A stretch of DNA of 43,725 bases from Pseudomonadota bacterium (lineage in GTDB: Bacteria; Pseudomonadota; Alphaproteobacteria; Micropepsales; Micropepsaceae). Positions 5,914 to 38,696 of this stretch are shown here, piece after piece; position 1 is the stretch's first letter, and each line of letters starts with the position of its first letter. The notes below the pieces were generated by a model, which was not told the DNA's origin, did no database searches, and saw only the letters and a list, made by a program, of their open reading frames with translations. Location: contig JAJZGY010000014.1 in NCBI GenBank assembly GCA_021804785.1, positions 1 through 43,725 on the forward strand, given 5' to 3'. The position numbers and the translations under genes were made by a program.

Positions 5914-6800
5914 TGGACGTCTAAGAGCGGACGAAATCCAGTCCCCTCTTCAGCCACCCGCACCGCGTGGCGACCTGCGAAGTGAGCCGGAAAAACAAGC
6001 GCATGCGTTTCTGCAGCTTCCTGTAGTACCGTCCGACGAGTTTGCCGAGCGGTAGCACCATCCTCGCAGAACGCGCTGTTCCAGTCGGGATGATAGATCT
6101 GCATCGGGCTATGCATGATATCACCAATGAACATCGCCCGATCACCAGCAGACTCTGCGCGCAGATACATGTGGCCGGGCGTATGGCCAGGCCCCGAAGC
6201 AAGCGTGAGCCCTCTAGCCACAACATGCCCCTCCCCGACCAATTCATGCCTGGCAAGGTCCAGGATGGGCTGAACGCTGTCCTCGAAGACATTCTGGTTG
6301 ACGTATCGTCCACCCTCAGAGGCATGCCCCTGGAGAGGGTCCCAATAGGTGCGGTCAACTTTTGGCAGGATATACTTTGCATTGGGAAACGTTGGGAGCC
6401 ATTGGCCATCAACTTGCCGGGTGTTCCATCCAACATGATCGATATGAAGATGGGAGCAGACCACGATGTCGATATCTTCTGGACAAAATCCCGCTTTCTC
6501 CAAATTGGAAAGATAAGGAGTTTGAAGGTCACTGAAAATTGGGATCCCAGGGCGGGATTTACCATCACCGGAGCAGCTGTCCACGAGTATGCGCTGCCCG
6601 TCCACGTCCAGAAGCCAGCTCTGTACAAAGCCGACAATCATGTTGGAAGCTGGATGATAGTGATCCGGTACGATCTGGGCTGCATGAAGCCGGAAGGCTT
6701 CATCGCTATAGCCAGGGAAAAGGAATTGCGGGGAAGAAAACTCCCCCGCCCACTCCTCGATCCTATGCACTACGATGTCGCCGACGCGGAACTTGTCCAT
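5910..6800 (-). CDS. MBL-fold hydrolase (lactonase/glyoxalase II-like)
   Basis: This intact 296-residue metallo-beta-lactamase-fold protein has the full di-zinc motif HLHIDHVG (HxHxDH, ~residues 117-122). Downstream ligand regions are GPGHTPGHMYLR and the Asp in FIGDIMHSP. The closing motif PAHFAGRHAV carries the last His. Members hydrolyse lactones, thioesters or esters; the family includes quorum-quenching lactonases and glyoxalase II. Lying between a TonB receptor and an SDR, it may open a lactone or cleave an ester or thioester of the imported compound. There is no signal peptide, so it acts in the cytoplasm. It is 35 nt downstream of the receptor. This gene keeps every ligand that the pseudogene at 719-1620 has lost. 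Confidence 0.82.
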   Translation of the reverse strand: MDKFRVGDIVVHRIEEWAGEFSSPQFLFPGYSDEAFRLHAAQIVPDHYHPASNMIVGFVQSWLLDVDGQRILVDSCSGDGKSRPGIPIFSDLQTPYLSNLEKAGFCPEDIDIVVCSHLHIDHVGWNTRQVDGQWLPTFPNAKYILPKVDRTYWDPLQGHASEGGRYVNQNVFEDSVQPILDLARHELVGEGHVVARGLTLASGPGHTPGHMYLRAESAGDRAMFIGDIMHSPMQIYHPDWNSAFCEDGATARQTRRTVLQEAAETHALVFPAHFAGRHAVRVAEEGTGFRPLLDVQ

Positions 6801-6835: not shown

Positions 6836-9115
6836 CTAGAAATCGTACCCTAGCGTCACACCAAACGTACGCGGTGGCATCAACGATCCCACGCGAATGC
6901 TGCCATAAAGCGGCGCCGTGATGATGTCATTAGCGAGCGCATATTGGTCGGTAAGGTTGCGCACCCAAAGCGTAGCTGAAACATGATCATTTCCTGCCGG
7001 TATAAACCGTACGAGCGCGTTGACGAGCGCATAAGCCCCCTGCACCGCATCCTGATTATTGTACTCGTTGAAGTAAACCTTGTCCTGCCAAGTCATATCC
7101 GCATGAAGTTGCGCTGTACCAAGCTTTGAAAGATGAACAGTATATGTAGCACCGCCACCAAACGAGAAGTCTGGTGCGTTGGGTAGCGTATTACCTTTCA
7201 AGCTGACTAGGCCGGGACTGTTCGCACAGGCAGGATAGACCGGTCCCGGAGGAATGCCTTGACGATAATATGCTGTGCAGAAATTCGTGAACTTCGCATT
7301 AAGATAGGTGCCATAGGCGTTAAGAGTAAGTGCATCAGTTGGATTCGCGGTGACGTCGAACTCAACGCCGTAATTGCGCGCCGCAGCAGCGTTCCGGGTC
7401 TCGACGATGCTATTCGCATTCACGAAGCTAACCTGAAGGTCCTTATAGTCGTAGTAAAACGCTGCCGTATCAAACTGGAGCCGATCATTCAGGGCGCTGA
7501 CCTTCACCCCACCTTCGTAGTCCCAAACGTATTCGGGGTTGATAACAGGGTTCTGGCTACCGATGTTGATGGTACCAGACTTGAAGCCACGGGTAACAGT
7601 CGCATAGAAATTCAGATTGTCGGTGGGTTGATACTGCAGGGTGAATTTGGGAGTGACCGCGCCCCAGCCACGACTTTTGTCGGTGGGTACATTGATGCCT
7701 TCCGCCTGAAATACAAACGACCCCATACCGGCCTTGTGCTCATAATTATAGCGAGCGCCGGCAGTTACTTTTAGTTTGGGCGTAATCTTGTACGTACCCT
7801 GCATATATATGCCGTAAGCATTGGTGCTCGTGGCACCTAGCTGGCGGTAATACATGCTATCGAAATAGTTCGCTGGCAAATTTGTGCCAAGAAGCCCATT
7901 GAAGTAAACAGCAAGATTGGTTGTGGGGACCAATACCTCACCATCAAGCCGTTCGTGGAAATACATGGCGCCAGCGAGCAATTCGAGCTTTTTCCACTCA
8001 TAGTCAGCCGTGAATTCCTGGCTAAACGTTTCACTATGCTCGAAGTAGTTGTTCTGCCCGAACATGTTGACACTTGCGGCATCCAGATCATCGCGATTGA
8101 AGCGCTGGAAATTGCGGTATGCAGTCGTGGACGTAAATGTCAGCGCACCAGGTGTCCAAGTGACGATGGAGGTGATACCTTCATTTTCACGCCGGTTTAT
8201 CGGTTCCTGATCAGAATAGATGTTTCGTAGGTTGGGCGGCAACCCGAGGCTCGCATAATAGCCAAATATAGTCTGCCCACCAGGGAGGTAGTTAAAGGCG
8301 AGCTTATTCTCCGGAACTACCGTTGTACCAAAGTAATGGAAAGCATAGTTGTGGTCATGTTCACGGAAATATTCCGCTACCAGCTCCACGTCCAAATCCG
8401 ACCTCGGCTTCCATTCCAAGGTTCCGCGATACGCCTGGGAGCGTTGGTTGTCGATCGCGGCGCCGGTAAAGAGGTTTTTGCCATAGCCACCATGAGACTG
8501 AATGTCCGTGGCTAGGCGCCCCATCAAGGTGCCACTGTCATTTAGCGGCCCACTAACCGCACCCTCAAAACTGAAAAGGCTGTAGTTGCCCGCAGTTACG
8601 TGAGCGTAACCGGTCAGATAATCCGTCGGCTTAGCGGTCACAAGATTGATTGCACCTGCAGTGGCACCACGCCCATAGGTAGTACCCTGCGGACCACGGA
8701 GCACCTCCACGCGGGACAAATCATAAAACCCCAGCAATTGCGCAGCCGGACGGGCAATCATTGCACCATCTTCCAGCACGGCCACCGCGCCATCACCGCC
8801 CAGGTCGATACTGGTCATACCAATACCGCGAATAAATATGCGTGCAACGCCGAATTGATTTCCGACCGACAGATTGGGCACCATTGCCTGCAGATCGGCA
8901 ATGTTCTGGATGCCGCCCGGACCGATCTTGTTCGCTGAAATCACTGACGCCGCCACAGGAGCATCTTTTAGTGTCTGATGGGTTTTGGTCGCGCTTACTA
9001 CGACCTCTTCGATCTTCTGAGTGGTTGCTATTGCAGCAGGACCCAAGATCAGAGCAATGCCCGCAACTGAGGCGAAAAGTACCGCACGATAGGTCTTTTT
9101 ACGTTCAACGCCCAT
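6836..9115 (-). CDS. TonB-dependent outer-membrane receptor
   Basis: I choose ATG 9115 (759 residues) over an in-frame TTG at 9142, because the ATG begins a proper signal peptide (ERKK, then AVLFASVAGIALILG) and an AAGGGGG tract lies upstream. After the cleaved leader comes a TonB box-like IEEVVVSATK and the plug domain (PVAASVISA, then VEVLRGPQGTTYGRGATAGA), then a ~600-residue beta-barrel ending in GVTLGYDF with the terminal aromatic residue. Sphingomonads and related bacteria use such receptors to import organic growth substrates as well as iron chelates. Its place between a CoA ligase and degradative enzymes argues for substrate uptake. Its promoter carries an operator-like repeat also found before the mutase gene. 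Confidence 0.92.
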   Translation of the reverse strand: MGVERKKTYRAVLFASVAGIALILGPAAIATTQKIEEVVVSATKTHQTLKDAPVAASVISANKIGPGGIQNIADLQAMVPNLSVGNQFGVARIFIRGIGMTSIDLGGDGAVAVLEDGAMIARPAAQLLGFYDLSRVEVLRGPQGTTYGRGATAGAINLVTAKPTDYLTGYAHVTAGNYSLFSFEGAVSGPLNDSGTLMGRLATDIQSHGGYGKNLFTGAAIDNQRSQAYRGTLEWKPRSDLDVELVAEYFREHDHNYAFHYFGTTVVPENKLAFNYLPGGQTIFGYYASLGLPPNLRNIYSDQEPINRRENEGITSIVTWTPGALTFTSTTAYRNFQRFNRDDLDAASVNMFGQNNYFEHSETFSQEFTADYEWKKLELLAGAMYFHERLDGEVLVPTTNLAVYFNGLLGTNLPANYFDSMYYRQLGATSTNAYGIYMQGTYKITPKLKVTAGARYNYEHKAGMGSFVFQAEGINVPTDKSRGWGAVTPKFTLQYQPTDNLNFYATVTRGFKSGTINIGSQNPVINPEYVWDYEGGVKVSALNDRLQFDTAAFYYDYKDLQVSFVNANSIVETRNAAAARNYGVEFDVTANPTDALTLNAYGTYLNAKFTNFCTAYYRQGIPPGPVYPACANSPGLVSLKGNTLPNAPDFSFGGGATYTVHLSKLGTAQLHADMTWQDKVYFNEYNNQDAVQGAYALVNALVRFIPAGNDHVSATLWVRNLTDQYALANDIITAPLYGSIRVGSLMPPRTFGVTLGYDF

Positions 9116-9160
9116 AAAACGCAGCCCCCCCTTATACGCCAAATACTGGCGGTCTATATA

Positions 9161-9245: not shown

Positions 9246-10859
9246 CTAGCTGCGGAATTGTTCTCGCCGCAGCCTTAAGCCGGCTACTTCGCGGTCCCAG
9301 GTATCTGTGGTTACGCCCTCACCACGTAGCACAGCCTTTTGAACCTTCGCAGAGGGCGTCTTGGGCAAGTCGTCAAGGATCCTGATGTAGCGAGGAACCA
9401 TGAAATAAGCCATTCGTTCTGCGAGAAATCCGATGAGCTCCGCCGGATCTATAATCTGACCCGGTACCGGTGCGATCACCGCCATCACCTCATCTTCCGA
9501 AAGATCACTTGGTACGCCAATAACAGCGGCTTCGCGCACGCTGGGATAGGCTACGATCTCAGCCTCTACTTCAAAGGACGAGATATTCTCTCCCCGGCGA
9601 CGGATGGTATCCTTGAGCCGATCGACGAAATAAAAGTATCCATCCTCGTCGCGGCGGAAGCCGTCACCGGTATGAAACCAGCCGTTGCGCCATGCCCGGG
9701 CTGTCGCCTCCGGGTTCTTGTGGTAACCGCTGTTCATAGCCCATGGCCTGTCCGTCCGCAGGATCATCTCACCGACTTGTCCGACTGGAACTTCGCACTC
9801 GTTTTCGTCAACGAGGCGTACCTCAACTCCCCTACGCGGCCGACCGCAGGTACCGCGCTTTGTCGGGTTGGGTTCCGATACAATCGGTGAGGAAATCTCT
9901 GTCATGTTGAATATGGTATAAACGTCAATACCAAAGCGTTCCGAAAACGGGGCGGCGTCGTCAGTTAATGGTACCATGAGTGCGAGGCGCACTTTATGAT
10001 CCCTGTCCGCTGCAGCCTGAGGACGCTTCATCAAGAATGTCGCCATGACCCCTAGCAGGAAAATGGCGGTGCACTTGGTTTGCTTGACAAAATCCCAGAA
10101 GGTGTCGGTAGAATAACTTTCCATCATGGCGATTGAGCCACCACGCGCAAACATCACAAATGGAAGTCCCATCCCACCAATGTGAAATAAAGGCATATTT
10201 ACGAGGAAGCGGTCTTCTGCGGTCACCATTGCCCAAGAGTCTGGGCCTGCGTTGGTGTAAAGATGCAGATAGGAAGACAGCACACCTTTTGAAGGGCCGG
10301 TTGTTCCGGAGGTGTAGATGATCGACTGTGTGTCCCATGGCTCAATAGGCCGATCCGGCTCGACCAACACACCCAGGGATCGTGCAAGTGTCTCAAACGC
10401 GCTGACTCGCAAGCCGGAAGGTACCGAACCTTCACCGACCAGTACCACGTGCTGAAGATTAGGCGCTTGAACATCAGCCAGGCGCTCTACCAGGGTGCCA
10501 TGCGCAACCAGAATGCTGGCGTCGGAATTGTTGAGGACGTGCTGGAGAATAGTGCCACGATAGGCTGTATTGAAGGGGACAAACACTGCCCCCAGATAGT
10601 TAATGGCAAATTGGATCAATAGTCCTTCCCTGCCATTCGGCAGCCATACAGCCACATGGTGGCCCCGCGCCACACCCAGCTGCTGCAATCCGGTTGCCAC
10701 CTTGATCACACGGTGGCGGAATTCAGAAAAGCTCCATTCCTCACCATCAGCGAAGACGACAAAGGTTTGCTCGGGCTTTTCACGCGCCCAGCGATCCATC
10801 AGATAGCGGGACACGCAAAGCTCGCGCGCCGGAACGCGCGGATCGCTGTGACCTGGCAT
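9246..10859 (-). CDS. AMP-forming acyl-CoA ligase (CaiC/FadD-like)
   Basis: This 537-residue member of the adenylate-forming ligase family has the phosphate-binding loop IIYTSGTTGPSKGV (~residues 185-198). The hinge region reads GWFHTGDGFRRDEDGYFYF and then RLKDTIRRRGENIS, and the C-terminal catalytic Lys is in PSAKVQKAVLR. It makes an acyl-AMP and then the CoA thioester. Its overall style recalls CaiC-type ligases for short or branched acids. In block A it most likely activates the carboxylic acid that the mutase then rearranges. It ends 130 nt before the TonB-receptor start and begins at an ATG with GGGGGAG just upstream. Confidence 0.88.
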   Translation of the reverse strand: MPGHSDPRVPARELCVSRYLMDRWAREKPEQTFVVFADGEEWSFSEFRHRVIKVATGLQQLGVARGHHVAVWLPNGREGLLIQFAINYLGAVFVPFNTAYRGTILQHVLNNSDASILVAHGTLVERLADVQAPNLQHVVLVGEGSVPSGLRVSAFETLARSLGVLVEPDRPIEPWDTQSIIYTSGTTGPSKGVLSSYLHLYTNAGPDSWAMVTAEDRFLVNMPLFHIGGMGLPFVMFARGGSIAMMESYSTDTFWDFVKQTKCTAIFLLGVMATFLMKRPQAAADRDHKVRLALMVPLTDDAAPFSERFGIDVYTIFNMTEISSPIVSEPNPTKRGTCGRPRRGVEVRLVDENECEVPVGQVGEMILRTDRPWAMNSGYHKNPEATARAWRNGWFHTGDGFRRDEDGYFYFVDRLKDTIRRRGENISSFEVEAEIVAYPSVREAAVIGVPSDLSEDEVMAVIAPVPGQIIDPAELIGFLAERMAYFMVPRYIRILDDLPKTPSAKVQKAVLRGEGVTTDTWDREVAGLRLRREQFRS

Positions 10860-10959: not shown

Positions 10960-11589
10960 TCAGCCCTTTTGTGGCTTGAACCTCACGATTCGCTCCACCG
11001 CATCCAATGCGTGGCGGATGACTTCACTGGGCGTGCGCTGCCCCTCGGGATTGTACCAAAGAGAAATCCAGCTAAGCAGTCCACCAATCCAGACTGCCGT
11101 CATCGCCGGGTCTGCGATGTCAAACTCCCCGGCCTTCTTTCCCTCTTCCAGGAGTTGCGCAACTTTTTGGTCAAAGCGATGACGCAGATCGCGGATTCGC
11201 CTTGCGTCAGCGGGCGCAAGGTTCTTCTCCTCGCGCTGGTAGACCACAATAAATTCCTGGTTTTCGATGATGATCCTGGCGGTTCGCTCGACGAGGAGCT
11301 TCATGCGTGCGGTCAGCGTACCCTTTGCTGCCAGGGCCTCCGCTTGAACGTCAAGCGCCAGGGTGATGCCGCGCTGACAGATCTCGGAAAGGATCTCGCC
11401 CTTGTTGCGGTAATAAGAATATATGAACGGTTTGGTAACATTCAAACGTTCACTGACTTGATCAAGCGTGGTGGTCGTATAGCCCTGATTGAAGAAAAGG
11501 TGGCACGCCTCCTCAAGGATGAGGCGACGCTTGTAGGCAGCGATTTCAACCTTCAGTTTTTTGGGCTTACGAATCGCGCGAACTGCCAA
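10960..11589 (-). CDS. TetR/AcrR-family transcriptional regulator of block A
   Basis: This 209-residue TetR protein has an N-terminal Lys/Arg-rich arm (RKPKKLKVE) and then a helix-turn-helix domain: RRLILEEACHLFFNQGY, TTTTLDQVSERLNVTKPFI and YSYYRNKGEIL (~residues 22-68). The C-terminal ligand domain has no recognisable specificity. The start is a TTG; an in-frame stop lies a few codons upstream and no ATG is available. It lies between the Fe-ADH and ligase genes on the same strand, so it is probably a local repressor released by a pathway CoA ester. The matching inverted repeats at the TonB-receptor and mutase promoters are its best candidate operators. Confidence 0.85.
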   Translation of the reverse strand: MAVRAIRKPKKLKVEIAAYKRRLILEEACHLFFNQGYTTTTLDQVSERLNVTKPFIYSYYRNKGEILSEICQRGITLALDVQAEALAAKGTLTARMKLLVERTARIIIENQEFIVVYQREEKNLAPADARRIRDLRHRFDQKVAQLLEEGKKAGEFDIADPAMTAVWIGGLLSWISLWYNPEGQRTPSEVIRHALDAVERIVRFKPQKG

Positions 11590-11657: not shown

Positions 11658-12833
11658 TCAGCCCGCCGCGATCCGCAGGATTTCCATGACCTCCTCCGGA
11701 CCATTGACCGGGCGCGGATTGGTCCGCGCCCACAAATCTTCCATTGTGTAACGGGCGACCTTGTCGAACTGCGATTGATCCACATTCACGCTTTTCAGGG
11801 TCCGTGGCATGCCGAGGCTGCGAATGAACTTGTCTGCAGCGTCTGCAGCTGACGCGCCCGCCTTGCCAAGCCCTGCGGCAATGCGCTTTTGTCTCTCGCC
11901 ATTCACTGCCGCATTCCAGGCCAGTACATAAGGCGCCATTACGCAGGAGGTATAACCGTGGGGAACACCGCAGGTTCCACCCAATACGTGGCCAATGGCG
12001 TGGCTGGCTCCCATAGGTATTCCACCAATCACCGGGATCATCGACTGCCAGGCACCAATCTGGCACTTGAGGCGACCGTCAAGATCGGCCGGATTGGACT
12101 TCACCCGAGCGAGACCCTCCGACAGCAGACGCAAGGCGCTGTCTGCCATTCCATCCGCGAAATCATTGGACAAAAACGATCCCAAGGTCTCCATGGCATG
12201 ATCGAGAGAGCGCACACCCGTCGACATCCACAACCACTCCGGGGTGTGGACGGTAATTGCGGGGTCGAGAATAACTGAGATGGGTGCCATTAGCCGGTGC
12301 TCGTATCCCTGCTTCAACTGGATCCGCTCGTCGGTGGCGCCTGACAAGGTATTGAATTCGCCGCCCGACAAGGTGGTCGGAATGGCAATCATTCGAACAT
12401 CCGGGCCTTCATATTGAGGCCTTTGCAAAACGCCCTTTTCGTCGACATAAATGTGATAGGGCTCGAGATCTTCAGGTTTGCGTAGATTATGCTTGAGGCA
12501 CAGAAGCATGACGGCCGAAGCATCATTGACCGAGCCACCACCTACGGATACGACGAGGTCAGCCTTCACCTCGCGTGCATGTTCCGCCGCCCGAATAACG
12601 GCAGAACGCGGGGCATGAGGAGGCATGCCATCATGCGTTGCTGCATGACGCTTTCCAAGTGCCTTCTCGATACGGGCAATCTCGTCCGTATTCTTGTTCA
12701 GATTAGTGCTGACGTGGAGAAAGACGCGCTTTGCGTCCAAGCGATCGACCTCGGCAGCCAAGGCCTCAGCGGCCGGCCGACCCAGCGAAACGTTTTCCAT
12801 CGCTGTCCAGATGATCTGACTTTGTGCAACCAT
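11658..12833 (-). CDS. Iron-type alcohol dehydrogenase / maleylacetate reductase-like oxidoreductase
   Basis: This 391-residue group III dehydrogenase has the NAD-binding GGGSVNDA motif (~residues 97-104), PTTLSGGEFN, and a C-terminal helical domain with SHAIGHVLGGTCGVPHG. The segment STGVRSLDHAMETL resembles maleylacetate reductases: the metal-binding Asp of classical Fe-ADHs (Asp196 of FucO) aligns with Arg, while the His residues of the site remain. It could therefore be a metal-independent reductase of a keto acid or aldehyde instead of a true iron ADH. The start ATG has GGGAGGA 5 nt upstream. It is transcribed divergently from the mutase genes across a 142-nt shared promoter region and heads the minus-strand series of block A. 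Confidence 0.82.
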   Translation of the reverse strand: MVAQSQIIWTAMENVSLGRPAAEALAAEVDRLDAKRVFLHVSTNLNKNTDEIARIEKALGKRHAATHDGMPPHAPRSAVIRAAEHAREVKADLVVSVGGGSVNDASAVMLLCLKHNLRKPEDLEPYHIYVDEKGVLQRPQYEGPDVRMIAIPTTLSGGEFNTLSGATDERIQLKQGYEHRLMAPISVILDPAITVHTPEWLWMSTGVRSLDHAMETLGSFLSNDFADGMADSALRLLSEGLARVKSNPADLDGRLKCQIGAWQSMIPVIGGIPMGASHAIGHVLGGTCGVPHGYTSCVMAPYVLAWNAAVNGERQKRIAAGLGKAGASAADAADKFIRSLGMPRTLKSVNVDQSQFDKVARYTMEDLWARTNPRPVNGPEEVMEILRIAAG

Positions 12834-12873
12834 AGCATCCTCCCACTATCGCAAATCCGACAGGCAAACGGCC

Positions 12874-12901
12874 TTGACGCGGCTTGCATGTTATATATAC
12901 C
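12874..12901 (+). promoter_or_regulatory. Putative promoter of the acyl-CoA mutase genes
   Basis: TTGACG (12874-12879) is followed after 16 nt by TATACC (12896-12901), about 75 nt upstream of the mutase ATG. The -10 overlaps the inverted repeat at 12896-12911, as expected for repression by promoter occlusion. Confidence 0.5.
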
Positions 12902-12911
12902 CAGTGGTACA
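12896..12911. promoter_or_regulatory. Operator-like inverted repeat in the Fe-ADH/mutase divergent promoter
   Basis: TATACC-CAGT-GGTACA: the inner arms TACC/GGTA are perfectly inverted around a 4-nt centre. It lies in the 142-nt region between two divergent starts and overlaps the mutase -10. A similar element precedes the TonB-receptor gene. I infer binding of the TetR protein encoded at 10960-11589. Confidence 0.45.
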
Positions 12912-12975
12912 TTATTTATACGATCAGTCAACTTCCTTGCAGGCATGGTGCCAAGGAACCCCCCGGGAAAACCGC

Positions 12976-14607
12976 ATGACAGACACACCATCGCGAACCT
13001 GGAAGACAGCGTCCGGCATCCCCCTGAAATCCTCCTATTGCAGAGAGGACATCCCGCAATGGTACCTGCCTGAGATAAATAAGGCACCGGGCGAATTGCC
13101 CTATCAGCGTGGGGCATTTGCACAGGGCTACCGCTCGAAGCCCTGGCGCATATTCCAGCTTTCCGGTTTTGGTAAACCTGAAGACGAGAACGAACGGATC
13201 AAATTCCTTCTCGCGCATGGCGAAACCGGCTTCCTGATGGAACATGATCGCAACACCGCTGACCATATGTACAATGTGGACCACCCCGATGTACTTGCCC
13301 GACCACAGGATGTCGGACTTACCGGAGCGGTCATGCAAAGCATACGCGACATCGATATCTGCCTCTCCGACTTACCGATCTCAACAACATTCGGGCATGC
13401 AGGTGGAGCTGTAGTTCAGCACGCACCCTTTGCACTCGCAGGGTACTGGACGGTCGCTAAAAGGCGTGGACTCAGCCTCGAAACCCTGCCAGGTACCGGG
13501 CAAAGTGATTTTTTTCTGACCTATCATGGCTGCGTCCCCAAGCATCAGATCCCGACTGCAGCCGGGCTGCGCTTTAACGCCGACATCATCGAGTTCTGTT
13601 ACAAATATGTTAAACGCTGGGTGCCGGTATCGATTGCAGCCTATAATGGCGCGGATACCGGACTGAACGCCTATCAGGAACTCGGGGCGCTCTTTGCTAA
13701 CGCTGTCGAATATCTCGACGAAATCAAGCGCCGTGACTCGATGCCACTCGAGGCAGCCGCGAAGGCGTGCGGAGGCGTGAATTTTCGCCTGTCGATGGAT
13801 CTCTTCGAGGAAGCTTCCAAGATCCGCGCCGGTCGCAAAATGTGGGCGGACTTGCTGGAACGCCGATATGGCATAAGCGACGCCAAAGCGCGGCAGCTGC
13901 GCATTCACTGCGTCACGTCCGGTTCCAACATGACCTACCAGCAGCCGCTGAACAACATTGTACGCGGCACACTTATGGCACTTGCGGGGGTATTGTCTGG
14001 TATCCAGTCGCTTGGTATCTCGGGCTATGACGAAGCCCTCTCAATTCCCTCGGAACATGCACACCAGATGTCAGTGCGTATCCAGCAAATTCTTCAGCAC
14101 GAAACGAACGTCCCGGCGGTGGTTGATCCGCTGGGGGGCTCCTACTATATCGAGTCCTTAACGGCCGAGCTGATAGAACGCGCGTGGTCCTTCTTCGACG
14201 AGATCCAGTCTCGTGGTGGCTTTCTCGAAACGCTCAATACCGGCTGGTTACATCACTGCGCCCACGAAAATCAGCATGAGGATTTTCTTGCCCAGGAACG
14301 CAAGGAGCGCATTATTGTTGGCGTCAACGACTTCAGGGCAGATATCTCGCCGTTTGAGGTGGATGGCTTTGTGGGCGTAAACGATGCATTCGACGTCGCC
14401 ATGCAACGATTGAAGGATGTCCGGGCTACGCGCGCACAAAGGCCTGCCGCCCAGGCACTGCACAATCTGGAGCGAGTCTGCCGCAATTCGGAAAACATCA
14501 TGCCTGCAATGATGGATGCCCTGGATGCGGAGGTTACGCTGGGTGAAATCGGTGATGTGTGGCGCAGTGTGCTCGGGGACTGGGTTGCCCCCCAGATCAC
14601 GATTTAG
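12976..14607 (+). CDS. B12-dependent acyl-CoA mutase, large (substrate-binding) subunit, divergent subfamily
   Basis: This 543-residue TIM-barrel subunit of the methylmalonyl/isobutyryl/2-hydroxyisobutyryl-CoA mutase family catalyses radical 1,2-carbon-skeleton rearrangement with adenosylcobalamin bound by the separate small subunit. Family landmarks: PYQRGAF, FQLSGFG (~61-66), PGTGQSDFF (~172-180), GLRFNADI (~198-205), LFEEASKIRAGR, GYDEA and VDPLGGSYY. Key positions differ. Leu62 aligns with MCM Tyr89 (Phe in isobutyryl-, Ile in hydroxyisobutyryl-CoA mutase). Arg199 matches MCM Arg207. Tyr223 is kept but Asn224 replaces MCM His244. There is also an extra Gly/Ala/His-rich stretch at ~140-151. 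ATG 12976 is chosen over upstream in-frame codons because the family N-terminus begins here. The substrate is unknown; a branched or hydroxy/keto acyl-CoA is plausible. Confidence 0.88.
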   Translation: MTDTPSRTWKTASGIPLKSSYCREDIPQWYLPEINKAPGELPYQRGAFAQGYRSKPWRIFQLSGFGKPEDENERIKFLLAHGETGFLMEHDRNTADHMYNVDHPDVLARPQDVGLTGAVMQSIRDIDICLSDLPISTTFGHAGGAVVQHAPFALAGYWTVAKRRGLSLETLPGTGQSDFFLTYHGCVPKHQIPTAAGLRFNADIIEFCYKYVKRWVPVSIAAYNGADTGLNAYQELGALFANAVEYLDEIKRRDSMPLEAAAKACGGVNFRLSMDLFEEASKIRAGRKMWADLLERRYGISDAKARQLRIHCVTSGSNMTYQQPLNNIVRGTLMALAGVLSGIQSLGISGYDEALSIPSEHAHQMSVRIQQILQHETNVPAVVDPLGGSYYIESLTAELIERAWSFFDEIQSRGGFLETLNTGWLHHCAHENQHEDFLAQERKERIIVGVNDFRADISPFEVDGFVGVNDAFDVAMQRLKDVRATRAQRPAAQALHNLERVCRNSENIMPAMMDALDAEVTLGEIGDVWRSVLGDWVAPQITI

Positions 14608-14613
14608 GGTACC

Positions 14614-14619
14614 AGGAGG
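14614..14619 (+). promoter_or_regulatory. Strong Shine-Dalgarno that fixes the TTG start of the mutase small subunit
   Basis: AGGAGG lies 5 nt before TTG 14625. No ATG exists nearby, and the longer in-frame ORF would run back into the large-subunit gene, so this site decides the start. Confidence 0.75.
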
Positions 14620-14624
14620 TACGA

Positions 14625-15050
14625 TTGAAGAATTCTGCACGCATTCTTATCGCCAAGACAGGACTTGATGGTCATTGGCGCGGCGCCTCGTTGGTCGCCC
14701 GCGCCTTGCGCGAGGCAGGTTTCGACGTGGTGATGGCCGGTATGAGCAGCTGGGAAGAGATCGTCCAGGCTATTTCCGACAAGGAAGTCGACCTCTTGGG
14801 AATTTCGATCGGCGGACACATGGAGGTCGCCGAGCGTGCAATTGCAGAGGCCCGCAAAGTCCGCCCGGACCTGCCTGTGATGGTGGGGGGCGTGGTACCG
14901 CCATGGGCAAAGAAGAAACTCGAGGCACAGGGCGTCGAGGTTTACCCTCCAGGCTCCCAGATGAGCGAGATCACCGAAGGCGCACAGCGTCTGACCGGCT
15001 ATCGGGCCGAACCAATGCCAGGTTCGGACACCGGCCGGTCCCAGGCGTGA
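14625..15050 (+). CDS. B12-binding small subunit of acyl-CoA mutase
   Basis: This 141-residue cobalamin-binding Rossmann-like domain starts at TTG 14625 behind AGGAGG. The signature DxHxxG reads DGHWRG (residues 15-20), with His17 as the lower axial ligand of cobalt. The later segments LLGISIGGH and VMVGGVVPP match the SxL and GG motifs that hold the nucleotide tail. It forms the active heteromer with the large subunit encoded 17 nt upstream. The size and stand-alone nature match IcmB/HcmB-type subunits. No MeaB/IcmF-type GTPase chaperone is encoded in the window, which is unusual for mutase operons; it may be elsewhere in the genome. Confidence 0.92.
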   Translation: MKNSARILIAKTGLDGHWRGASLVARALREAGFDVVMAGMSSWEEIVQAISDKEVDLLGISIGGHMEVAERAIAEARKVRPDLPVMVGGVVPPWAKKKLEAQGVEVYPPGSQMSEITEGAQRLTGYRAEPMPGSDTGRSQA

Positions 15051-16492: not shown

Positions 16493-16537
16493 AAATACCC
16501 GGCCGCAAAAATATCCGTACGACAAGTGGGAGGGCTT

Positions 16538-18556
16538 ATGAGCAAGCTGCTTGAATCTTTCGAGGTGATGGGTCTTCGGTTCAAGAACCGCATCATCCAC
16601 GCGCCCACCACGCTGAACATGTCGGATCCTCAGGGCTATGCCACGCGGCGTCTGACCGCGGCCTATGGCTCGATCGCACGAGGCGGCTATGCAGCCACCG
16701 TCGTTGGGGCGACCTGCGTACGTCGCGACGGGCTGATCAACGAGCGCATGCTTGGCCTTTACGACGACGACTATGTGCTGGAATTCCGCGACACGGTGGC
16801 GGAAATCAAGAACAACGAATCGCTAGCCGGCATTCAGCTGTTCTATGGCGGACTCATTCCCGGCCTTGGCGCCACGGTGCCGCTGAAGCCCGGGAAGGGC
16901 TGGATTCCCGGCACCGTCTCTTGGGGACCATCGAACAAATACTTCATTGGCAATCCGCGGTGCGACGTGATTCCGACGGAGGAATATGAGGCCATCGTCG
17001 AGAGCTATGCGCAGGCCGCGCGGCGGGCAAAGGAGGCGGGCTTCGACTTCCTCTCCTTCCACTTCTGCCACGGCTCCCTGCCTCACGCCAATCTTTCTCT
17101 GCTGTCTAACCAAGAGCGTACCGACAAATATGCCGATCGCTTCCTGATGTGCGAGGAGATCATCCAGCGTACCCAAGTGCTGTGCGGCAAGGACTTCCCG
17201 ATCATTCCGCGCCTGTGCGTCGACGAGAACCTGAAGGGCGGCTTCGACATCGCCTATTTTGTCGAGCACTATGCGCCACGGCTTCATGCCCTGGGCATCG
17301 CCGTACTGGACTGCACTTTCGGCTCCATGCTGATGGCGGAAAGCCGCCGACCCGACCGCCACTCTACCGAATTCATCGGCCCATCCTTCTACACGCCCAA
17401 GGTGGTGAACAAGGAAAACATCCAGACGCTGCGCCGGCTATTGCAGGAAAAGGGTATCGACATGCCTCTGATCGGCTCGGCCAATCTGATCACACCGGAC
17501 AATTTGCGCACCATGGTGGACGAGGCGGGCGCTGACTTTGCCGGCGTGTGCAGACTGTCGCTGGACGATCCTGATTTTCCCAACAAGATTATCGAGGGAC
17601 GGGAAGACGAAATCCGGCTGTCCACCCACACCGGCGCGTCTTTGCTGCAAGGCAACATCTTTGGCAAGGGTTGGGCCGGATCGGCGCAGAATCCGATGTT
17701 CGGACGCGAGGACGAATACCGCATCATCCCTACCAACCGACCGAAGAAGATCGTAATCGTCGGCGGCGGCTCGGGCGGCATGGAATACGCTATCACGGCG
17801 CAAGAAATCGGCCACGACGTCCTAGTGTTAGAGAAATCCCAAAGCCTCGGCGGCGCGATGGACTGGGCCGGCAACTATCCCAACCTGCCCAACATGGAGA
17901 TGCTACGCAACCAGCCTAACTATCATCGCAAAATGATGGATAAGTGGCAGGTGCCGGTACGACTTGGGGTGGAAGCCACCACCGAAACCGTGCTAGCGGA
18001 AAAGCCGGATGTCATCGTCATCGCCACTGGTGCACGTGCGTTCCTGCCCGACATTGAGGGTCTGGATGCGGCACGCCGATCGGGCTTTGCTGTGACCATC
18101 GACGAGGTGATGGCCCGCGATGTGCCCGCCCGGGTGGGCGGCAGCGTGGTGATCTGGGGTGCCGGAGAGGGGGGCGAACTCGCGCTCAACCTAATGTTGG
18201 GCGGTGCCAAGGTGCGCTTGCTGGACGCCCTGCCCTCCTATTCGCCAGCCAACTACATCGGTTCGCGCGCCATGGTAATCGCCGGCATGCTGGCCCATTT
18301 CGGCATTGAGATCGAAACGGGCTGGAACCTGAGCTCCGTCGCCGGCAAGACCGCGACCTTCGCCAGCAAGGAAGGCAGCCAGATTGATGTCAGTGTCGAC
18401 ACTCTGGTGCTCTGCCAAGGCCGCGTCGCCAATGACGAGCTGGCGGTCGACCTGCGTGGCAAAGGCCTGCCGGTGCAGGTTATCGGCGATGCCCGCAAGC
18501 CGCGATCCTACGCCAATGCCATCCACGAAGCGGCCTATCTGGTGCGCCAGCTATAA
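16538..18556 (+). CDS. Old Yellow Enzyme / 2,4-dienoyl-CoA reductase-like flavoprotein lacking the Fe-S cysteines
   Basis: This 672-residue protein has two parts. Residues ~1-350 form an FMN-binding TIM barrel (NRIIHAPTTLNM, the active-site region HFCHGSLPHANLSLLSNQ, PLIGSANLITPDNL). Residues ~395-672 form an FAD/NAD(P)H domain (KIVIVGGGSGGMEYA at ~402-416, VIVIATGAR). The layout is that of dienoyl-CoA reductase FadH, trimethylamine dehydrogenase and BaiH. In those, a CxxCxxxC(x11-12)C motif between the parts holds a [4Fe-4S] cluster that links FAD and FMN. Here that stretch reads STHTGASLLQG, then GSAQNPMFG, with no Cys. I prefer ATG 16538 over GTG 16526, with GGGAGGG just upstream. First gene of block B; probably reduces an enone or dienoyl-CoA. 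Confidence 0.85.
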   Translation: MSKLLESFEVMGLRFKNRIIHAPTTLNMSDPQGYATRRLTAAYGSIARGGYAATVVGATCVRRDGLINERMLGLYDDDYVLEFRDTVAEIKNNESLAGIQLFYGGLIPGLGATVPLKPGKGWIPGTVSWGPSNKYFIGNPRCDVIPTEEYEAIVESYAQAARRAKEAGFDFLSFHFCHGSLPHANLSLLSNQERTDKYADRFLMCEEIIQRTQVLCGKDFPIIPRLCVDENLKGGFDIAYFVEHYAPRLHALGIAVLDCTFGSMLMAESRRPDRHSTEFIGPSFYTPKVVNKENIQTLRRLLQEKGIDMPLIGSANLITPDNLRTMVDEAGADFAGVCRLSLDDPDFPNKIIEGREDEIRLSTHTGASLLQGNIFGKGWAGSAQNPMFGREDEYRIIPTNRPKKIVIVGGGSGGMEYAITAQEIGHDVLVLEKSQSLGGAMDWAGNYPNLPNMEMLRNQPNYHRKMMDKWQVPVRLGVEATTETVLAEKPDVIVIATGARAFLPDIEGLDAARRSGFAVTIDEVMARDVPARVGGSVVIWGAGEGGELALNLMLGGAKVRLLDALPSYSPANYIGSRAMVIAGMLAHFGIEIETGWNLSSVAGKTATFASKEGSQIDVSVDTLVLCQGRVANDELAVDLRGKGLPVQVIGDARKPRSYANAIHEAAYLVRQL

Positions 18557-18568
18557 CGGAGCACTGAC

Positions 18569-19426
18569 ATGACTGGAAGGTTGGACAGGCGCATCGCCCT
18601 CATCACCGGTGGCTGTTCGGGCATCGGGCGGGCGGCGGTCGAACGCTTTGTGGCGGAGGGCGCGAAGGTCGTTATAGCCGACATCCAGGACGACAAGGGC
18701 AAGAGCCTTGAAGCGCGCTTTGCCTCTCGCGCAATCTATTTGCACTGTGACGTAACACGCGAAGCGGACGTTGCGGCCAGCGTGACCGCGGCGGAGGAGA
18801 CGTTCGGCGGCCTCGACATCCTGTTCAACAATGCAGGTGCCGGCGGCCCGCCCACCGGCCTCATCGACATGGACGTGGCCGCCTGGGACGCTTCCATGGA
18901 CCTGCTGCTGAAGGCGCCGATGCTGGGCATGAAGCATGCAGCGCCGCTGATGATCAAGCGCGGCGGCGGCTCCATCATCAACACCGCCTCCATCGCGGCG
19001 CTAGAAGCAGGCTGGGGCATAGCTTACGGCACGGCCAAAGCAGGCGTACTGCACCTGACCAAACTGGCGGCAGCGAACCTTGCCAAACACAATATCCGCG
19101 TCAACGCGATCTGTCCCGGCGTGATAGTCACTCCCATCTTCGGCGTGTCGATCGGCCTGTCGCGGGCGGTTTCCGACCAGATGACGGGCACGCTGACCGA
19201 GGCCGCGGCGCAAATGCAGCCGATTGCGCGCGCCGGCCAGCCCGAAGATATCGCCGCTGCCGCGCTCTACTTTGCCAGCGACGATGCGAGTTTCGTGACC
19301 GGTTCGTATCAGGTGGTCGATGGTGGCCTCACCGTGGGCCAGCGTATCGCCTGGAACGAAGGCGCCGTCCTTCCTATTCACCAGGCGCTGGCGGCGGCGG
19401 CGCCTGACCACGCAGACAAGGATTGA
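18569..19426 (+). CDS. Short-chain dehydrogenase/reductase (classical SDR)
   Basis: This classical SDR has 285 residues. The cofactor loop is ITGGCSGIGR (~12-21), followed by VIADIQDDKG, whose Asp after the second strand favours NAD(H). NNAGAGG is at ~89-95. The catalytic Ser is in INTASIAAL and the Tyr/Lys in AYGTAKAG. The substrate loop is long, with an insertion after ICPGVIVTPIFG. It likely oxidises a secondary hydroxyl to the ketone during ring or side-chain degradation. CGGAG precedes the ATG by 8 nt; 12 nt separate it from the flavoprotein gene, and its TGA is 5 nt before the next ATG. Confidence 0.87.
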   Translation: MTGRLDRRIALITGGCSGIGRAAVERFVAEGAKVVIADIQDDKGKSLEARFASRAIYLHCDVTREADVAASVTAAEETFGGLDILFNNAGAGGPPTGLIDMDVAAWDASMDLLLKAPMLGMKHAAPLMIKRGGGSIINTASIAALEAGWGIAYGTAKAGVLHLTKLAAANLAKHNIRVNAICPGVIVTPIFGVSIGLSRAVSDQMTGTLTEAAAQMQPIARAGQPEDIAAAALYFASDDASFVTGSYQVVDGGLTVGQRIAWNEGAVLPIHQALAAAAPDHADKD

Positions 19427-19431
19427 ACGCC

Positions 19432-19860
19432 ATGAACGCAAAAGACGACACGCAGCCCACCATCGTGCCCTATCTGAAGCGCGACGAGAGCGGAAAACCC
19501 TACCTAGCGGGTTCCAAATGCACGGCCTGCGGCCATGTATTTGTAGGCGAGAGGACGGTATGCGCCAAATGTACGGCGCGCGGGCAGATGGTGTCGGTAC
19601 ATCTCGCCGAGACTGGCAAGCTTTATGTCTACACGATCATTCATCGCAGCTTTCCGGGCGTGAAGACGCCCTTCGTCGACGTCATCGTCGATCTGGACGA
19701 CGGCGCCCATCTGAAGGGCACGCTGGTGGGTGTCAAGCCCGAGCCTGAAGCGATCGCCTTCGATCTGCCTGTCAAGATCGCCTATCGCGAAGCCGAACCG
19801 GTGAACAAGCCCGGTAAGCCACACCTATCCTACGTTTTCGAACCCGCATTGGAGGCCTAA
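19432..19860 (+). CDS. DUF35-type zinc-ribbon/OB-fold protein, thiolase partner
   Basis: This 142-residue protein has an N-terminal rubredoxin-like zinc ribbon, with Cys at residues 30, 33, 44 and 47 (CTACG and CAKC), and then an OB-fold (VYTIIHRSFPGVKTPFVDV, ~65-85). DUF35 proteins form complexes with SCP2-type thiolases or thiolase-like aldolases and are needed for CoA-substrate binding in steroid side-chain, HMG-CoA synthase and acetone carboxylase-linked systems. The thiolase gene begins 3 nt downstream, the standard arrangement. An in-frame TTG at 19423 overlaps the previous stop; ATG 19432 with AAGGA upstream is preferred. Confidence 0.9.
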   Translation: MNAKDDTQPTIVPYLKRDESGKPYLAGSKCTACGHVFVGERTVCAKCTARGQMVSVHLAETGKLYVYTIIHRSFPGVKTPFVDVIVDLDDGAHLKGTLVGVKPEPEAIAFDLPVKIAYREAEPVNKPGKPHLSYVFEPALEA

Positions 19861-19863
19861 GCC

Positions 19864-21012
19864 ATGTCGGACGTCTATGTCGTCGGAATTGATATGATCC
19901 GCTTCGGCCGCTACCCCGAGCGTACAGTGCCGAGCCTTGCTGCGGAAGCGACACTGATGGCACTGGACGATTGCGGCCTTTCCATCCGTGACATGCAGGC
20001 GCTTTACTGCGGCAATCTCGGCCAGGCGTCCGGCATGGTAGGCCAGCGCATGCTGGCGGAGATCGGGCAGACCGGCATTCCCGTCACCAACGTTGCGAAT
20101 GCCTGCGCCACCGGTGCCACCGCGTTTCGCGATGCTTGGATGGCAATCAAGGCAGGAATCTACGACATCGTACTGGCCGTCGGCGTGGAGCAAATGGGCA
20201 AAGGCCTGCTGGGCGGCAGTGCCAGCGAACCATCGCCAGAGGGGCTGATCGGCTCGGGCAGCATGCCTGCGATGTTCTCGCAGATCGGTATCGAACATGC
20301 GCGCAAATACGGCACCACCTTTGCACAATTCTCCGGCGTCTCGGTGAAAAACCACTGGCACTCGACGATGAATCCCAAGTCCATGTACCGCATGGAAACG
20401 CCGCTACAGGAGGTTATGGCAGCGGAGATGATCGCCTGGCCCAACACCAAGCTGATGTGTTCGGTCAATGTCGACGGCTCGGCTGCAGCTGTACTCGTGT
20501 CCGAAGCAAAGATGCGACAGCTTGGGCTGGTCGGTCGGGCGATCAAGGTACGCGCCTCGGAAATGAGCTCGAACCCTTTCCAAGACCGCCAGATGGCGAT
20601 GCCCGATTTCAGCAGCGCCACACGGCTCGCCGCCCGGCGCGCCTATGAGATGGCCGGCGTCGGTCCAGAGGACATCAGCCTGGTCGAGCTGCACGACTGC
20701 TTCGCCACGGCGGAGATCGTGCACTACGAAAATCTCGGCCTATGCACGGACGGCGAGGCCGGCCGGCTGATCGACGATGGCGAAACCCGGCTCGGCGGCC
20801 GCATCCCAGTCAACGTTTCTGGCGGGCTGTTGTCGAAGGGCCATCCCCTCGGCGCCACGGGTATCGCCAACATCTACGAGATCGCAACCCATTTGCGCGG
20901 CGAGGCCGGCGACAGGCAAGTCAACGGCGCCCGCCTGGGCCTCACCCATGTCGTCGGCGGCGGTCCGGGCATGGGCACCGCCTGCGCGATCCACGTCCTC
21001 GAAAAGGTCTGA
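19864..21012 (+). CDS. SCP2/SCPx-type thiolase (acetyl-CoA acyltransferase family)
   Basis: This 382-residue protein keeps the catalytic residues of SCP2-type thiolases. The nucleophilic Cys is in NACATGATAF (Cys81). HDCFATAEI (~280) and GGLLSKGHPLGATG (His near 327) follow, and GMGTACAIHV carries the last Cys. Ltp2-type retro-aldolases lack the nucleophilic Cys, so true thiolytic cleavage of a 3-ketoacyl-CoA is more likely here than a retro-aldol reaction. It works with the DUF35 protein just upstream and would close each round of the block B pathway by releasing acetyl-CoA or propionyl-CoA. The next gene begins 4 nt downstream. Confidence 0.88.
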   Translation: MSDVYVVGIDMIRFGRYPERTVPSLAAEATLMALDDCGLSIRDMQALYCGNLGQASGMVGQRMLAEIGQTGIPVTNVANACATGATAFRDAWMAIKAGIYDIVLAVGVEQMGKGLLGGSASEPSPEGLIGSGSMPAMFSQIGIEHARKYGTTFAQFSGVSVKNHWHSTMNPKSMYRMETPLQEVMAAEMIAWPNTKLMCSVNVDGSAAAVLVSEAKMRQLGLVGRAIKVRASEMSSNPFQDRQMAMPDFSSATRLAARRAYEMAGVGPEDISLVELHDCFATAEIVHYENLGLCTDGEAGRLIDDGETRLGGRIPVNVSGGLLSKGHPLGATGIANIYEIATHLRGEAGDRQVNGARLGLTHVVGGGPGMGTACAIHVLEKV

Positions 21013-21016
21013 CGCC

Positions 21017-21907
21017 ATGGACAGCTTTGCCGGCAGCGTCGCGGTTGTCACCGGCGGGGCCAGCGGCCTCGGGTTCGCCCTGGCGCAAGAAGCCCAGGCC
21101 CGCGGCTGCAAGCTGGTGATCGGCGACATCCGCGAGGATGCGCTGAAGCAAGCCGAAGCCCGGCTGGCGCAGAGCGGCGAAGTGCTCGCCGTCCGGACCG
21201 ATGCCTCCAGAGCCGAAGAGATGGAGGCTTTGGCTGCATCGGCAACTGAGCGCTTCGGCAAAGTCAATCTCCTGTTCAACAATGCTGGCGTATTTGCCTC
21301 CGGCATCACCTGGGAGGTCTCGGTCGAAGAGTACGACTGGGTGATCGGCGTCAACCAGCGCTCGGTCATTTACGGCATCCGCGCTTTCGTACCGCGCATG
21401 ATCGCACAAGGTGATCCCTGTCACGTCATCACCATCGCCTCGGGCGCGGGTATAACCGTCAATCCCGGCTTCTGTACCTATTCGATGACTAAGCATGCGG
21501 TGGTCGCGCTGACAGAAGCCCTTTATCTCGATCTGGCCGCACAGAAGATAGCCAATGTTGGCGTGACGATCGTAATGCCCGGCATGAGCCAGTCCGGCAT
21601 CATGTCGCCGGAGAAAACAACGCCCGGCGCGCTGGAAGCCGAAGTCGGACGACGCAAGGACAATCCCGTTCTGAGTGCGCTGGAAGCGCTGATGACACAG
21701 GGCGTCGCCCAGGGCCTTCCGGCAGCAGAGCTGGCACGCATGGTTTTCGACGCAGTGGCGACGGGCGAGCTCTACGTCCTTCCCGCCTTTGGCGACGACA
21801 ATAACCGCGCCTTTGCCAACATGGTCGGCGCCGGCCGGGCAAACGGCCAAAATCCCTATCCGCCGGTTCTGGAAGGTCTTCTGGCAAGGCTCAAGGAATT
21901 CGAATGA
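21017..21907 (+). CDS. Short-chain dehydrogenase/reductase, C-terminally extended
   Basis: This 296-residue SDR begins at ATG 21017, 4 nt after the thiolase stop; longer in-frame extensions would lie inside the thiolase gene. Motifs: VTGGASGLGF (~10-19), VIGDIRED (NAD-type Asp), NNAGVFASG (~87-95), the catalytic YSMTK and PGMSQSGI. The C-terminus lacks the usual TGxxxxVDGG ending and has a helical tail (NPYPPVLEGLLARL), as in SDRs acting on bulky or polycyclic substrates. Its stop overlaps a possible ATG (21904) of the next gene. Probable role: oxidation or reduction of a ring hydroxyl or keto group. Confidence 0.85.
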   Translation: MDSFAGSVAVVTGGASGLGFALAQEAQARGCKLVIGDIREDALKQAEARLAQSGEVLAVRTDASRAEEMEALAASATERFGKVNLLFNNAGVFASGITWEVSVEEYDWVIGVNQRSVIYGIRAFVPRMIAQGDPCHVITIASGAGITVNPGFCTYSMTKHAVVALTEALYLDLAAQKIANVGVTIVMPGMSQSGIMSPEKTTPGALEAEVGRRKDNPVLSALEALMTQGVAQGLPAAELARMVFDAVATGELYVLPAFGDDNNRAFANMVGAGRANGQNPYPPVLEGLLARLKEFE

Positions 21908-21951
21908 GCGCTGCCGGCGATGCGACGGCGCACCATACTGGGAGTTGGAAG

Positions 21952-23121
21952 ATGTCTTATTTCTTGAACGAAGATCAGAGGCTGATGCGCGATGTGGCGG
22001 CGAAATTCGCCCGCAACGAACTGATGCCCATTGCCAATCAGATCGACCTGACGGAGACGACGCCAGAATGGGTGACCAACCGCTGTGGCGAACTCGGCTT
22101 TCTCGGCGTCTTCATTCCCGAAGCATATGGCGGGCTCGGGTCCGATCTGACCACAGCGTGCCTGATCCTTGAAGAGATTGCCAAGGCGAGCCCGGCCTTC
22201 GCGGGACTGCTTTCGGTAGAAATGATACTCTGCCCCGAAGTTGTGCGTATCCTCGGCAACGAAGAGCAGAAGCAGCGCTTGCTGCCTGCGTCGGCCTCGG
22301 GCGAGCGCGTGATGGCGTATTCGCAGACCGAACCCGCCGGCGCCGCCAATGTCGCTTTCCACCAGACCCGTCTGACACAGGACGGCAATGGCTATCGGCT
22401 CAACGGCCACAAATTGTTCTGCACGCAAGGCCATGCCAAGACCTATCTCGTGATGTGCCGCACCGAGAAGGACGGCGCGCAGGGCTATGGCTGCGTCATC
22501 GTGGAGGCCGAAGACGAAGGCTTTCAGGTGCAGAAATACGAGGAGAAACTGGGTTGGCGCGGCACCAATACCGGTCCGATCGCATTCACCGAAGTCGCCA
22601 TCTCGGCCGATGACATACTCGGCAACATCCTCAGCGGCGGTCCCGATCACGCCCCCGCCAACCAGGTCAGTTTCATCGGCCATGCCGCGACCTCGCTGGG
22701 CTGCATGGAGGGTCTGTTCGACCTGACGAAGGAGTATGTGCTGCAGCGCGAGCTTTATGGCGAGCCAATGACGCGACTGTCGCCCGTGACCGACCGCATG
22801 GCGCAGATCTGGACCAAGATCGAGGCCTGCCGCTCCCTGCTCTACATGTCAACCCGCATGCACGACGAAGGCGGTCTCACATTGCCGATGGGCAGCGCCT
22901 GCAAGGCCTATATCTGCGAGACTGCTTTTGAATGCACCAGCCAGCTTCTGCAAATGTGGGGTGGCAGCGGGATAATGCATTCGACAGGCGTCAATCGCTA
23001 CATGCGCGACGCCCGGGCTAAAATGGTGGCCGAGGCGACAACCGAAATGCATCATTCCATCATCGCCGGCACGATCGGTCTGGGCGGCCCCTTCGCCTCT
23101 CTCGCCGACCGTCTGGGCTGA
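21952..23121 (+). CDS. Acyl-CoA dehydrogenase
   Basis: The 389-residue form starting MSYFLNEDQRLMRDV fits the family N-terminus, with GGGAG nearby. An in-frame ATG at 21904 overlapping the previous stop would add 16 residues and cannot be excluded. FAD-domain motifs are AYSQTEPAGAANVAF (~122-136) and NGHKLFCTQGHA. The C-terminus has QMWGGSGIMHSTGVNRYMRDA, then MVAEATTEMHH, in which Glu sits where MCAD has its catalytic Glu376 (EAT in place of EGT). It desaturates the acyl-CoA made by the ligase encoded next. Electrons would go to ETF, which is not encoded in the window. Confidence 0.87.
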   Translation: MSYFLNEDQRLMRDVAAKFARNELMPIANQIDLTETTPEWVTNRCGELGFLGVFIPEAYGGLGSDLTTACLILEEIAKASPAFAGLLSVEMILCPEVVRILGNEEQKQRLLPASASGERVMAYSQTEPAGAANVAFHQTRLTQDGNGYRLNGHKLFCTQGHAKTYLVMCRTEKDGAQGYGCVIVEAEDEGFQVQKYEEKLGWRGTNTGPIAFTEVAISADDILGNILSGGPDHAPANQVSFIGHAATSLGCMEGLFDLTKEYVLQRELYGEPMTRLSPVTDRMAQIWTKIEACRSLLYMSTRMHDEGGLTLPMGSACKAYICETAFECTSQLLQMWGGSGIMHSTGVNRYMRDARAKMVAEATTEMHHSIIAGTIGLGGPFASLADRLG

Positions 23122-23141
23122 TCACCAGGGGACCGAAAGAC

Positions 23142-26295: not shown

Positions 26296-26351
26296 CGTCA
26301 AGATCAGTCAGTCGCTCTGGTCTAGAACTTGGCCTTCGGGGCAAAACGCGT

Positions 26352-38687: not shown

Positions 38688-38696
38688 CGCCGCTCC

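Follow-up and report, generated by a model that had tools for sequence, protein, structure and literature searches.

A deep, separate clade of predicted two-subunit B12-dependent acyl-CoA mutases with an altered active site and a recurrent gene cluster

Introduction

Adenosylcobalamin (AdoCbl)-dependent acyl-CoA mutases work by homolysis of the cofactor, formation of a 5'-deoxyadenosyl radical and migration of the CoA-carbonyl group. To our knowledge few such reactions have been described, and they belong to the small number of biological routes past a quaternary carbon. In methylmalonyl-CoA mutase (MCM) the substrate is bound by Tyr89 and Arg207 (substrate carboxylate) and by His244 (thioester), and the roles of Ile90 and Asp117 are known from 2-hydroxyisobutyryl-CoA mutase (HCM); the HCM residues are named Ile90, Asp117, Gln208 and His245, the chain numbering of PDB entry 4r3u running 11 ahead. 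Xaut_5043/5044 is taken here to be the characterised pivalyl-CoA mutase (PCM). Here we describe a gene pair at positions 12976-15050 of a 43,725-nucleotide stretch of DNA, called the window throughout, that encodes a predicted mutase of a deep and separate clade.

We favour, at close to an even chance, the reading that this mutase moves the CoA-carbonyl group off an alpha,alpha-disubstituted carbon to the neighbouring carbon, letting beta-oxidation proceed. The enzyme likely rearranges a branched acid for catabolism, and in related bacteria it is again accompanied by the same set of catabolic genes. More tentatively, with chances falling somewhat short of even, it may catalyse a new type of mutase reaction, marked by replacement of His by Asn, an acid beside the migrating group and a rebuilt strand, and acting on a bulky quaternary-carbon or tertiary-hydroxy acyl-CoA that perhaps derives from a terpenoid-like compound. 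The sharp bounds of the clade and its recurrent cluster, found also in named strains, make a possible new reaction directly testable; if true, it would show whether an otherwise conserved thioester-binding His can be replaced. Among the matches listed by literature searches, which covered mainly open literature, we recognised no work on this clade.

The mutase gene pair

The pair was compared with 59 loci obtained by a pattern scan of genome contigs, which detects close relatives only. Its two genes are:

12976-14607, plus strand: mutase large subunit, 543 amino acids (PF01642, 437.5 bits against a cut-off of 22.1; TIGR00641, 350.5 against 303.8)
14625-15050, plus strand: B12-binding small subunit (TIGR00640, 95.8 bits against 57.45; PF02310), present in 57 of the 59 loci

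The small-subunit translation contains KTGLDGHWRG, an instance of the DxHxxG B12 motif, which together with the Pfam and NCBIfam scores bears out the two-subunit B12 mutase with a canonical DGHWRG named in a preliminary description of this DNA. A PF01642 barrel and a B12-binding domain with DxHxxG are the features of the AdoCbl-dependent acyl-CoA mutase superfamily, and from its sequence the pair is predicted to be such an enzyme with both subunits encoded. The small subunit is predicted to start at a TTG behind AGGAGG. The closest folds to the large subunit are HCM (4r3u) and MCM, with HCM the top PDB match in both fold and sequence.

Identity of the family to labelled mutases is 25-32%. MCM (1req, 2xij) shares 27.0-29.8%, and the MCM equivalog NF006944 scores 319.8 bits against a cut-off of 876. 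The large subunit stands alone at 543 residues, unlike IcmF with its fused GTPase, and reaches 125.1 of the 1500 bits set for the IcmF equivalog NF045497.

Active-site residues

Three MAFFT alignments and one profile-profile alignment against a set of 121 HCM rows served to map the residues, with MCM numbering from P. shermanii. The family set comprised the window protein and 120 listed homologues (of 7,837 passing the E-value), 67-100% identical. All four alignments place Leu62 at the MCM Tyr89 position and Asn224 at the His244 position, as the preliminary description had proposed, and each residue occurs in 121 of 121 rows. That description had overlooked three further substitutions on which the three MAFFT alignments agree: Glu89 at the position of MCM Ala116 and HCM Asp117 (119/121), Phe60 at that of MCM Arg87 (119/121) and Val313 at that of MCM Gln330 (120/121). 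The only two exceptions at Glu89, P0060 and P0062, have Lys there; in both, Phe60 is replaced by Leu and residue 87 is Arg, which may mark a sub-type.

Arg207, once thought to be kept as Arg199, is lost. Arg199 corresponds to the Arg in 'PSMRII' of MCM and in 'PSVRIV' of HCM, and the Arg207 position is taken by Val187 in two alignments and by Cys186 in the third, neither of them basic; residue 187 is Val in 104 family rows, Ile in 16 and Leu in one. The extra stretch reported near residues 140-151, lining the barrel, reduces to a two-residue insertion, the rest being a replaced strand, with HAGGAVV in the region of SVSMTMN. Leu62, Asn224, Tyr223, His311, Arg284 and Glu353 are invariant across the 121 rows, and Gln176 is retained along with Tyr223, His311 and Glu353.

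The labelled types compared were MCM, ethylmalonyl-CoA mutase (ECM), IcmF-like, HCM and PCM, a set that stops short of single-domain Streptomyces isobutyryl-CoA mutase (ICM) and RcmAB. Residues at MCM positions 89, 116, 207 and 244 are, in that order (position 207 being offset by one column in the third alignment):

MCM: Tyr, Ala, Arg, His
ECM (ccr-linked): Tyr, Ala, Arg, His
IcmF-like: Phe, Ala, Gln, His
HCM: Ile, Asp, Gln, His (each in 121 of 121 rows)
PCM: Leu, Leu, Asn, His
Sphingobium type (see Phylogeny): Val, Glu, Val, Gln (each in 121 of 121 rows)
Window family: Leu, Glu, Val, Asn

The four-residue combination of the window family matches no labelled type compared. To that extent the earlier claim that the enzyme fits no characterised type stands, but two of its grounds fail: Arg207 is gone, and Leu at the Tyr89 position in Xaut_5043 and its five relatives (6/6) gives Leu62 a precedent. 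We therefore rejected Leu62 as an unprecedented feature. The real anomaly is Asn224, which stands where a thioester-binding His would be expected and has no counterpart among the labelled rows.

Tyr89, Arg207, His244, Arg87 and Gln330 of MCM are all replaced in the family. Tyr89 together with Arg207, which marks both MCM and the ccr-linked ECM, is thus missing from the window mutase; in the same genome ccr adjoins another mutase gene, on contig C60, whose row has Tyr and Arg. In one search this ECM-like gene (G000:C60:16414-19305) carried a single in-frame stop; a second search, covering less of its length, showed none.

The loss of Arg207 argues against carboxylate binding in the manner of MCM. 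An MCM-type dicarboxylic substrate is then not to be expected, and with hydrophobic residues at 60, 62 and 187 the enzyme could be ICM-like, acting on an acyl-CoA that is linear or singly branched and perhaps long or cyclic; its pocket would reflect chain size, not a doubly substituted alpha carbon. In the IcmF-like row, however, Phe stands at Tyr89 and Ala at 116, the IcmF equivalog score is far below its cut-off, and mono-branched acyl-CoAs are not known to need a mutase for ordinary beta-oxidation; we consider this alternative unlikely.

HCM and PCM, the labelled types with an aliphatic residue at the Tyr89 position, both take a doubly substituted alpha carbon, which favours an alpha,alpha-disubstituted substrate, and the acid at the 117 position, as in HCM, favours a polar substituent. 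In a narrower form of this reading, the enzyme would be an HCM-like 2-hydroxyacyl-CoA mutase that acts on a tertiary alpha-hydroxy acid of larger size, with an oxygenase and an iron-containing alcohol dehydrogenase (Fe-ADH) making the hydroxy acid and a 3-hydroxyacyl-CoA as product. Glu89 at HCM Asp117, an aliphatic residue at Ile90, a non-basic one at Gln208 and the top PDB rank of HCM are in keeping with it. Against this, none of the four HCM residues occurs at its position in the window protein, and HCM retains His245 in all 121 rows; with the evidence from trees and operons below, we regard this narrower form as possible but rather doubtful.

Phylogeny

The window family is a deep, separate mutase clade. 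A phylogeny of the large subunit, which the preliminary description had called for, recovers it as one clade at 100/100 in four of four trees. The IcmF-like and ECM-like rows were omitted from tree 2, these and Strep_L072, P0112 and Marino_L069 from tree 3, and IcmF-like, ECM-like, Strep_L072, P0112 and pcm_L123 from tree 4. The family stem measures 3.2 changes per column in tree 1, and the midpoint root splits it in trees 2-4 (3.07 + 1.31, 2.31 + 0.22 and 2.3 + 0.38).

Family and HCM form separate 100/100 clades, and forcing them together gave an approximately unbiased test value (p-AU) of 0.039 in tree 2, which argues against the HCM-like form. Family and PCM are likewise separate 100/100 clades, so the family lies outside both, with a sister placement that differs between trees. 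In trees 1, 2 and 3 it joins a type found in Sphingobium (95/96, 98/93 and 92/93), and all three joins were flagged as being between long branches. Tree 4, to which five PCM-clade rows were added, joins it weakly to PCM (65/83), the Sphingobium join not being rejected (p-AU 0.434); nor is the PCM join rejected in tree 3, which held one PCM row (p-AU 0.207).

The Sphingobium type comprises locus L071 and 120 listed homologues (P0121-P0240). It is 29.2% identical to the window protein and resembles it in an aliphatic residue at 89, Glu at 117, Val at 207 and loss of His244; we know of no function for it. Its two-subunit mutase lies at L071 4785-6506, with MeaB, TonB and P450 genes nearby.

The weak tree 4 join, from the best tree with several PCM rows, bears on a second narrower form, in which a PCM-like enzyme would turn a neo-acyl-CoA (2,2-dimethylacyl) without a hydroxyl into a 3-methylacyl-CoA. 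PCM (29.5% identity) shares with the window family two subunits, Leu at Tyr89 in six of six rows, and TetR and MeaB neighbours, and PCM operons, too, mostly carry an AMP-binding ligase like that of the window cluster. Yet in the PCM clade residue 117 is Leu or Ile and His244 is conserved (6/6), in contrast to Glu89 and Asn224, and the join is poorly supported, three trees favouring the Sphingobium type. A PCM-like activity is, in our judgement, distinctly unlikely. Xaut_5043 lies on pXAUT01, and its five relatives are plasmid-borne as well; the PCM small-subunit gene precedes the large one, the reverse of the window order.

Twelve reference rows (MCM, HCM, IcmF-like, ECM-like and four unlabelled, from neither PCM nor the Sphingobium type) have 25 positions at which all or all but one share a residue and six clade rows are fixed for another, including the Arg87, His244 and Gln330 equivalents; some of these positions vary in PCM too. 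Such a pattern, and the long stem in all four trees, would also be expected of a degenerate or repurposed large subunit that has lost mutase activity or performs other B12 chemistry. The intact B12 motif of the small subunit, the retained Gln176, Tyr223, His311 and Glu353, and the company of a small-subunit gene in 57 and a MeaB gene in 46 of the 59 loci all argue otherwise, and we think this very unlikely.

Distribution

Many of the 59 loci come from Halieaceae metagenome-assembled genomes (MAGs) and isolates, and named strains with the family include Kineobactrum sediminis F02, Haliea alexandrii LZ-16-2 and Pseudohaliea rubra DSM 19751. Some mutase match was found in 83 of 142 genomes from the window's class, and the family in three (the window's own at 100%, the others at 64% and 63%); the next among the matches listed stands at 36%. 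All 427 plasmid records with a mutase match fall below 60% identity, the top-ranked at 35.8%. The gap in the class genomes and the plasmid matches show a family that is sharply bounded in these samples.

The recurrent gene cluster

Cluster genes were counted by tblastn with identity thresholds chosen for this analysis, E 1e-8 and a 40% length rule. The 59 loci include truncated ones and are not mutually independent, and the queries for MeaB, P450 and luciferase-type monooxygenase (LLM) were drawn from three of them. Upstream of the mutase pair the window carries:

12834-12975, no strand: divergent intergenic region between Fe-ADH and large subunit, likely a shared control region
11658-12833, minus: Fe-ADH (PF00465/PF25137), 49 of 59 loci
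10960-11589, minus: TetR-type regulator (PF00440/PF17932), 48 of 59
9246-10859, minus: AMP-forming acyl-CoA ligase (PF00501; nearest NCBIfam PRK06155, NF004808, 505.1 against a cut-off of 722), 49 of 59
6836-9142, minus: TonB-dependent receptor (TIGR01783, 156.9 bits, below the cut-off of 223.5), 39 of 59
5910-6800, minus: metallo-beta-lactamase-fold hydrolase (PF00753), 15 of 59
5131-5913, minus: short-chain dehydrogenase (SDR; from its translation), related gene in 14 of 59
3952-5094, minus: acyl-CoA dehydrogenase (ACAD; family models, all below cut-offs), 12 of 59
3050-3847, minus: enoyl-CoA hydratase/isomerase (ECH; crotonase-family models, best NF006107, below cut-off), 34 of 59

The large subunit was counted in 57 of the 59 loci, L056 and L058 holding just a piece. 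The divergent layout of Fe-ADH and large subunit within 700 bases recurs in 41 of 60 sequences (the 59 loci and the window), in which no TetR operator could be resolved. The full set LLM-P450-TonB-ligase-TetR-FeADH / large-small-MeaB-ACAD-ECH is present in L032, L041, L044 and L055. Fe-ADH is missing from ten loci: in L028, L042, L056 and L058 the sequence flanking the mutase gene is short or cut off, and L002, L015, L034, L048, L049 and L057 have several kb on both sides, so the layout is not universal.

HCM operons contain hcl, hcmAB or rcmAB, meaH and usually a GntR regulator, according to PMC7176365. The window cluster has another type of ligase and a TetR regulator, a further point against the HCM-like form. 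No MeaB gene adjoins the window mutase; the genome has one on contig C38, and its IcmF-like gene includes a G domain.

MAG REEB323, in which contigs L019 and L056 each hold part of the mutase gene, has a P450 gene 3' of the small subunit. This P450 is not in the window, and the best P450 matches in the window's genome reach just 28-29%. PDB relatives of the P450, ligase, Fe-ADH and LLM had no substrate class in common.

In the more distant members L116 and L117 (63.4% and 62.0% identical to the window protein), the small subunit is followed by an aldehyde-dehydrogenase-like gene, and a luciferase-like monooxygenase, a hydratase and a PaaA-like protein are encoded close by; these assignments come from a domain scan in L116 and from similarity of the listed starts in L117. 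In both, the large subunit is immediately preceded by a gene for about 241 residues (L116 10949-11674, minus; L117 8301-9041, plus), whose L116 product matched no Pfam or NCBIfam model. Nitronate-monooxygenase/FabK-like genes (L057 9604-11535, L002 3436-4434) occur near members that lack the usual cluster, and in L057 a weakly CoA-transferase-like gene follows.

Proposed pathway

The data show the family assignment and fold, the B12 motif, the separate clade, the residue pattern and the recurrent gene cluster; the pathway steps and the substrate class are inferred. An oxygenase, an alcohol dehydrogenase, a ligase, the mutase, a dehydrogenase and a hydratase together suit the aerobic opening of a branched skeleton. 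The TonB receptor would take up a branched compound, which monooxygenases (P450, luciferase-type or others, depending on the locus) and alcohol or aldehyde dehydrogenases would convert to a carboxylic acid, and the ligase would form its CoA thioester. B12 would be loaded by MeaB, from the local gene in most loci and from the genome's general one for the window. The small subunit would then place AdoCbl over the barrel, and homolysis would give the 5'-deoxyadenosyl radical, which abstracts a hydrogen so that the thioester (CoA-carbonyl) can migrate; ACAD and ECH would complete breakdown. In the active site, Leu62 may give space for a second alpha substituent, as Leu would in PCM and Ile in HCM, Glu89 may bind a polar group of the substrate like HCM Asp117, and Asn224 may hold the thioester carbonyl instead of His.

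The new substrate suggested earlier is a fair inference because the clade is deep and separate and has its own gene cluster. Several points weigh against rearrangement at an alpha,alpha-disubstituted carbon. The roles of residues 89, 117 and 244 are carried over from other mutases. The Sphingobium type also combines an aliphatic residue with Glu, so the Leu/Glu pattern may mean something else. Loss of the Arg87, Gln330 and His244 equivalents could instead point to a change in how CoA or the cofactor is bound, with no new substrate involved. In the predicted model of the large subunit, loops 63-65, 93-95 and 114-116 fall below a pLDDT of 50. Finally, P450 and LLM genes, present in 24 and 19 of the 59 loci respectively, are missing from the window.

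Other features of the window

A plus-strand cluster at 16526-24686 was rejected as part of the mutase pathway, as six of its proteins occur in 0 of 59 loci at the tblastn thresholds. It encodes a BaiCD-like old yellow enzyme (OYE) flavoenzyme, an SDR, a ChsH2-like OB/DUF35 protein, a thiolase-like lipid-transfer protein, a second SDR, an ACAD and an AMP ligase. Two B12-related candidates were also dismissed: a cobalamin riboswitch, the sole Rfam match in the window at gathering scores being a tRNA, and membership of the cluster's TonB receptor in the B12 receptor family (TIGR01779, 47.6 against 599.7 bits). ABC importer genes of the BtuCDF/FecCD kind lie at 36883-39734 (minus), the permease being nearest BtuC, below cut-off.

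A 1196-residue open reading frame at 26208-29798 (plus) joins GH18-like, polysaccharide deacetylase and GT2 domains. A three-gene set resembling 2-oxoacid:ferredoxin oxidoreductase shares the mutase contig both in the window (30700-35625, minus) and in L054 (16770-21441).
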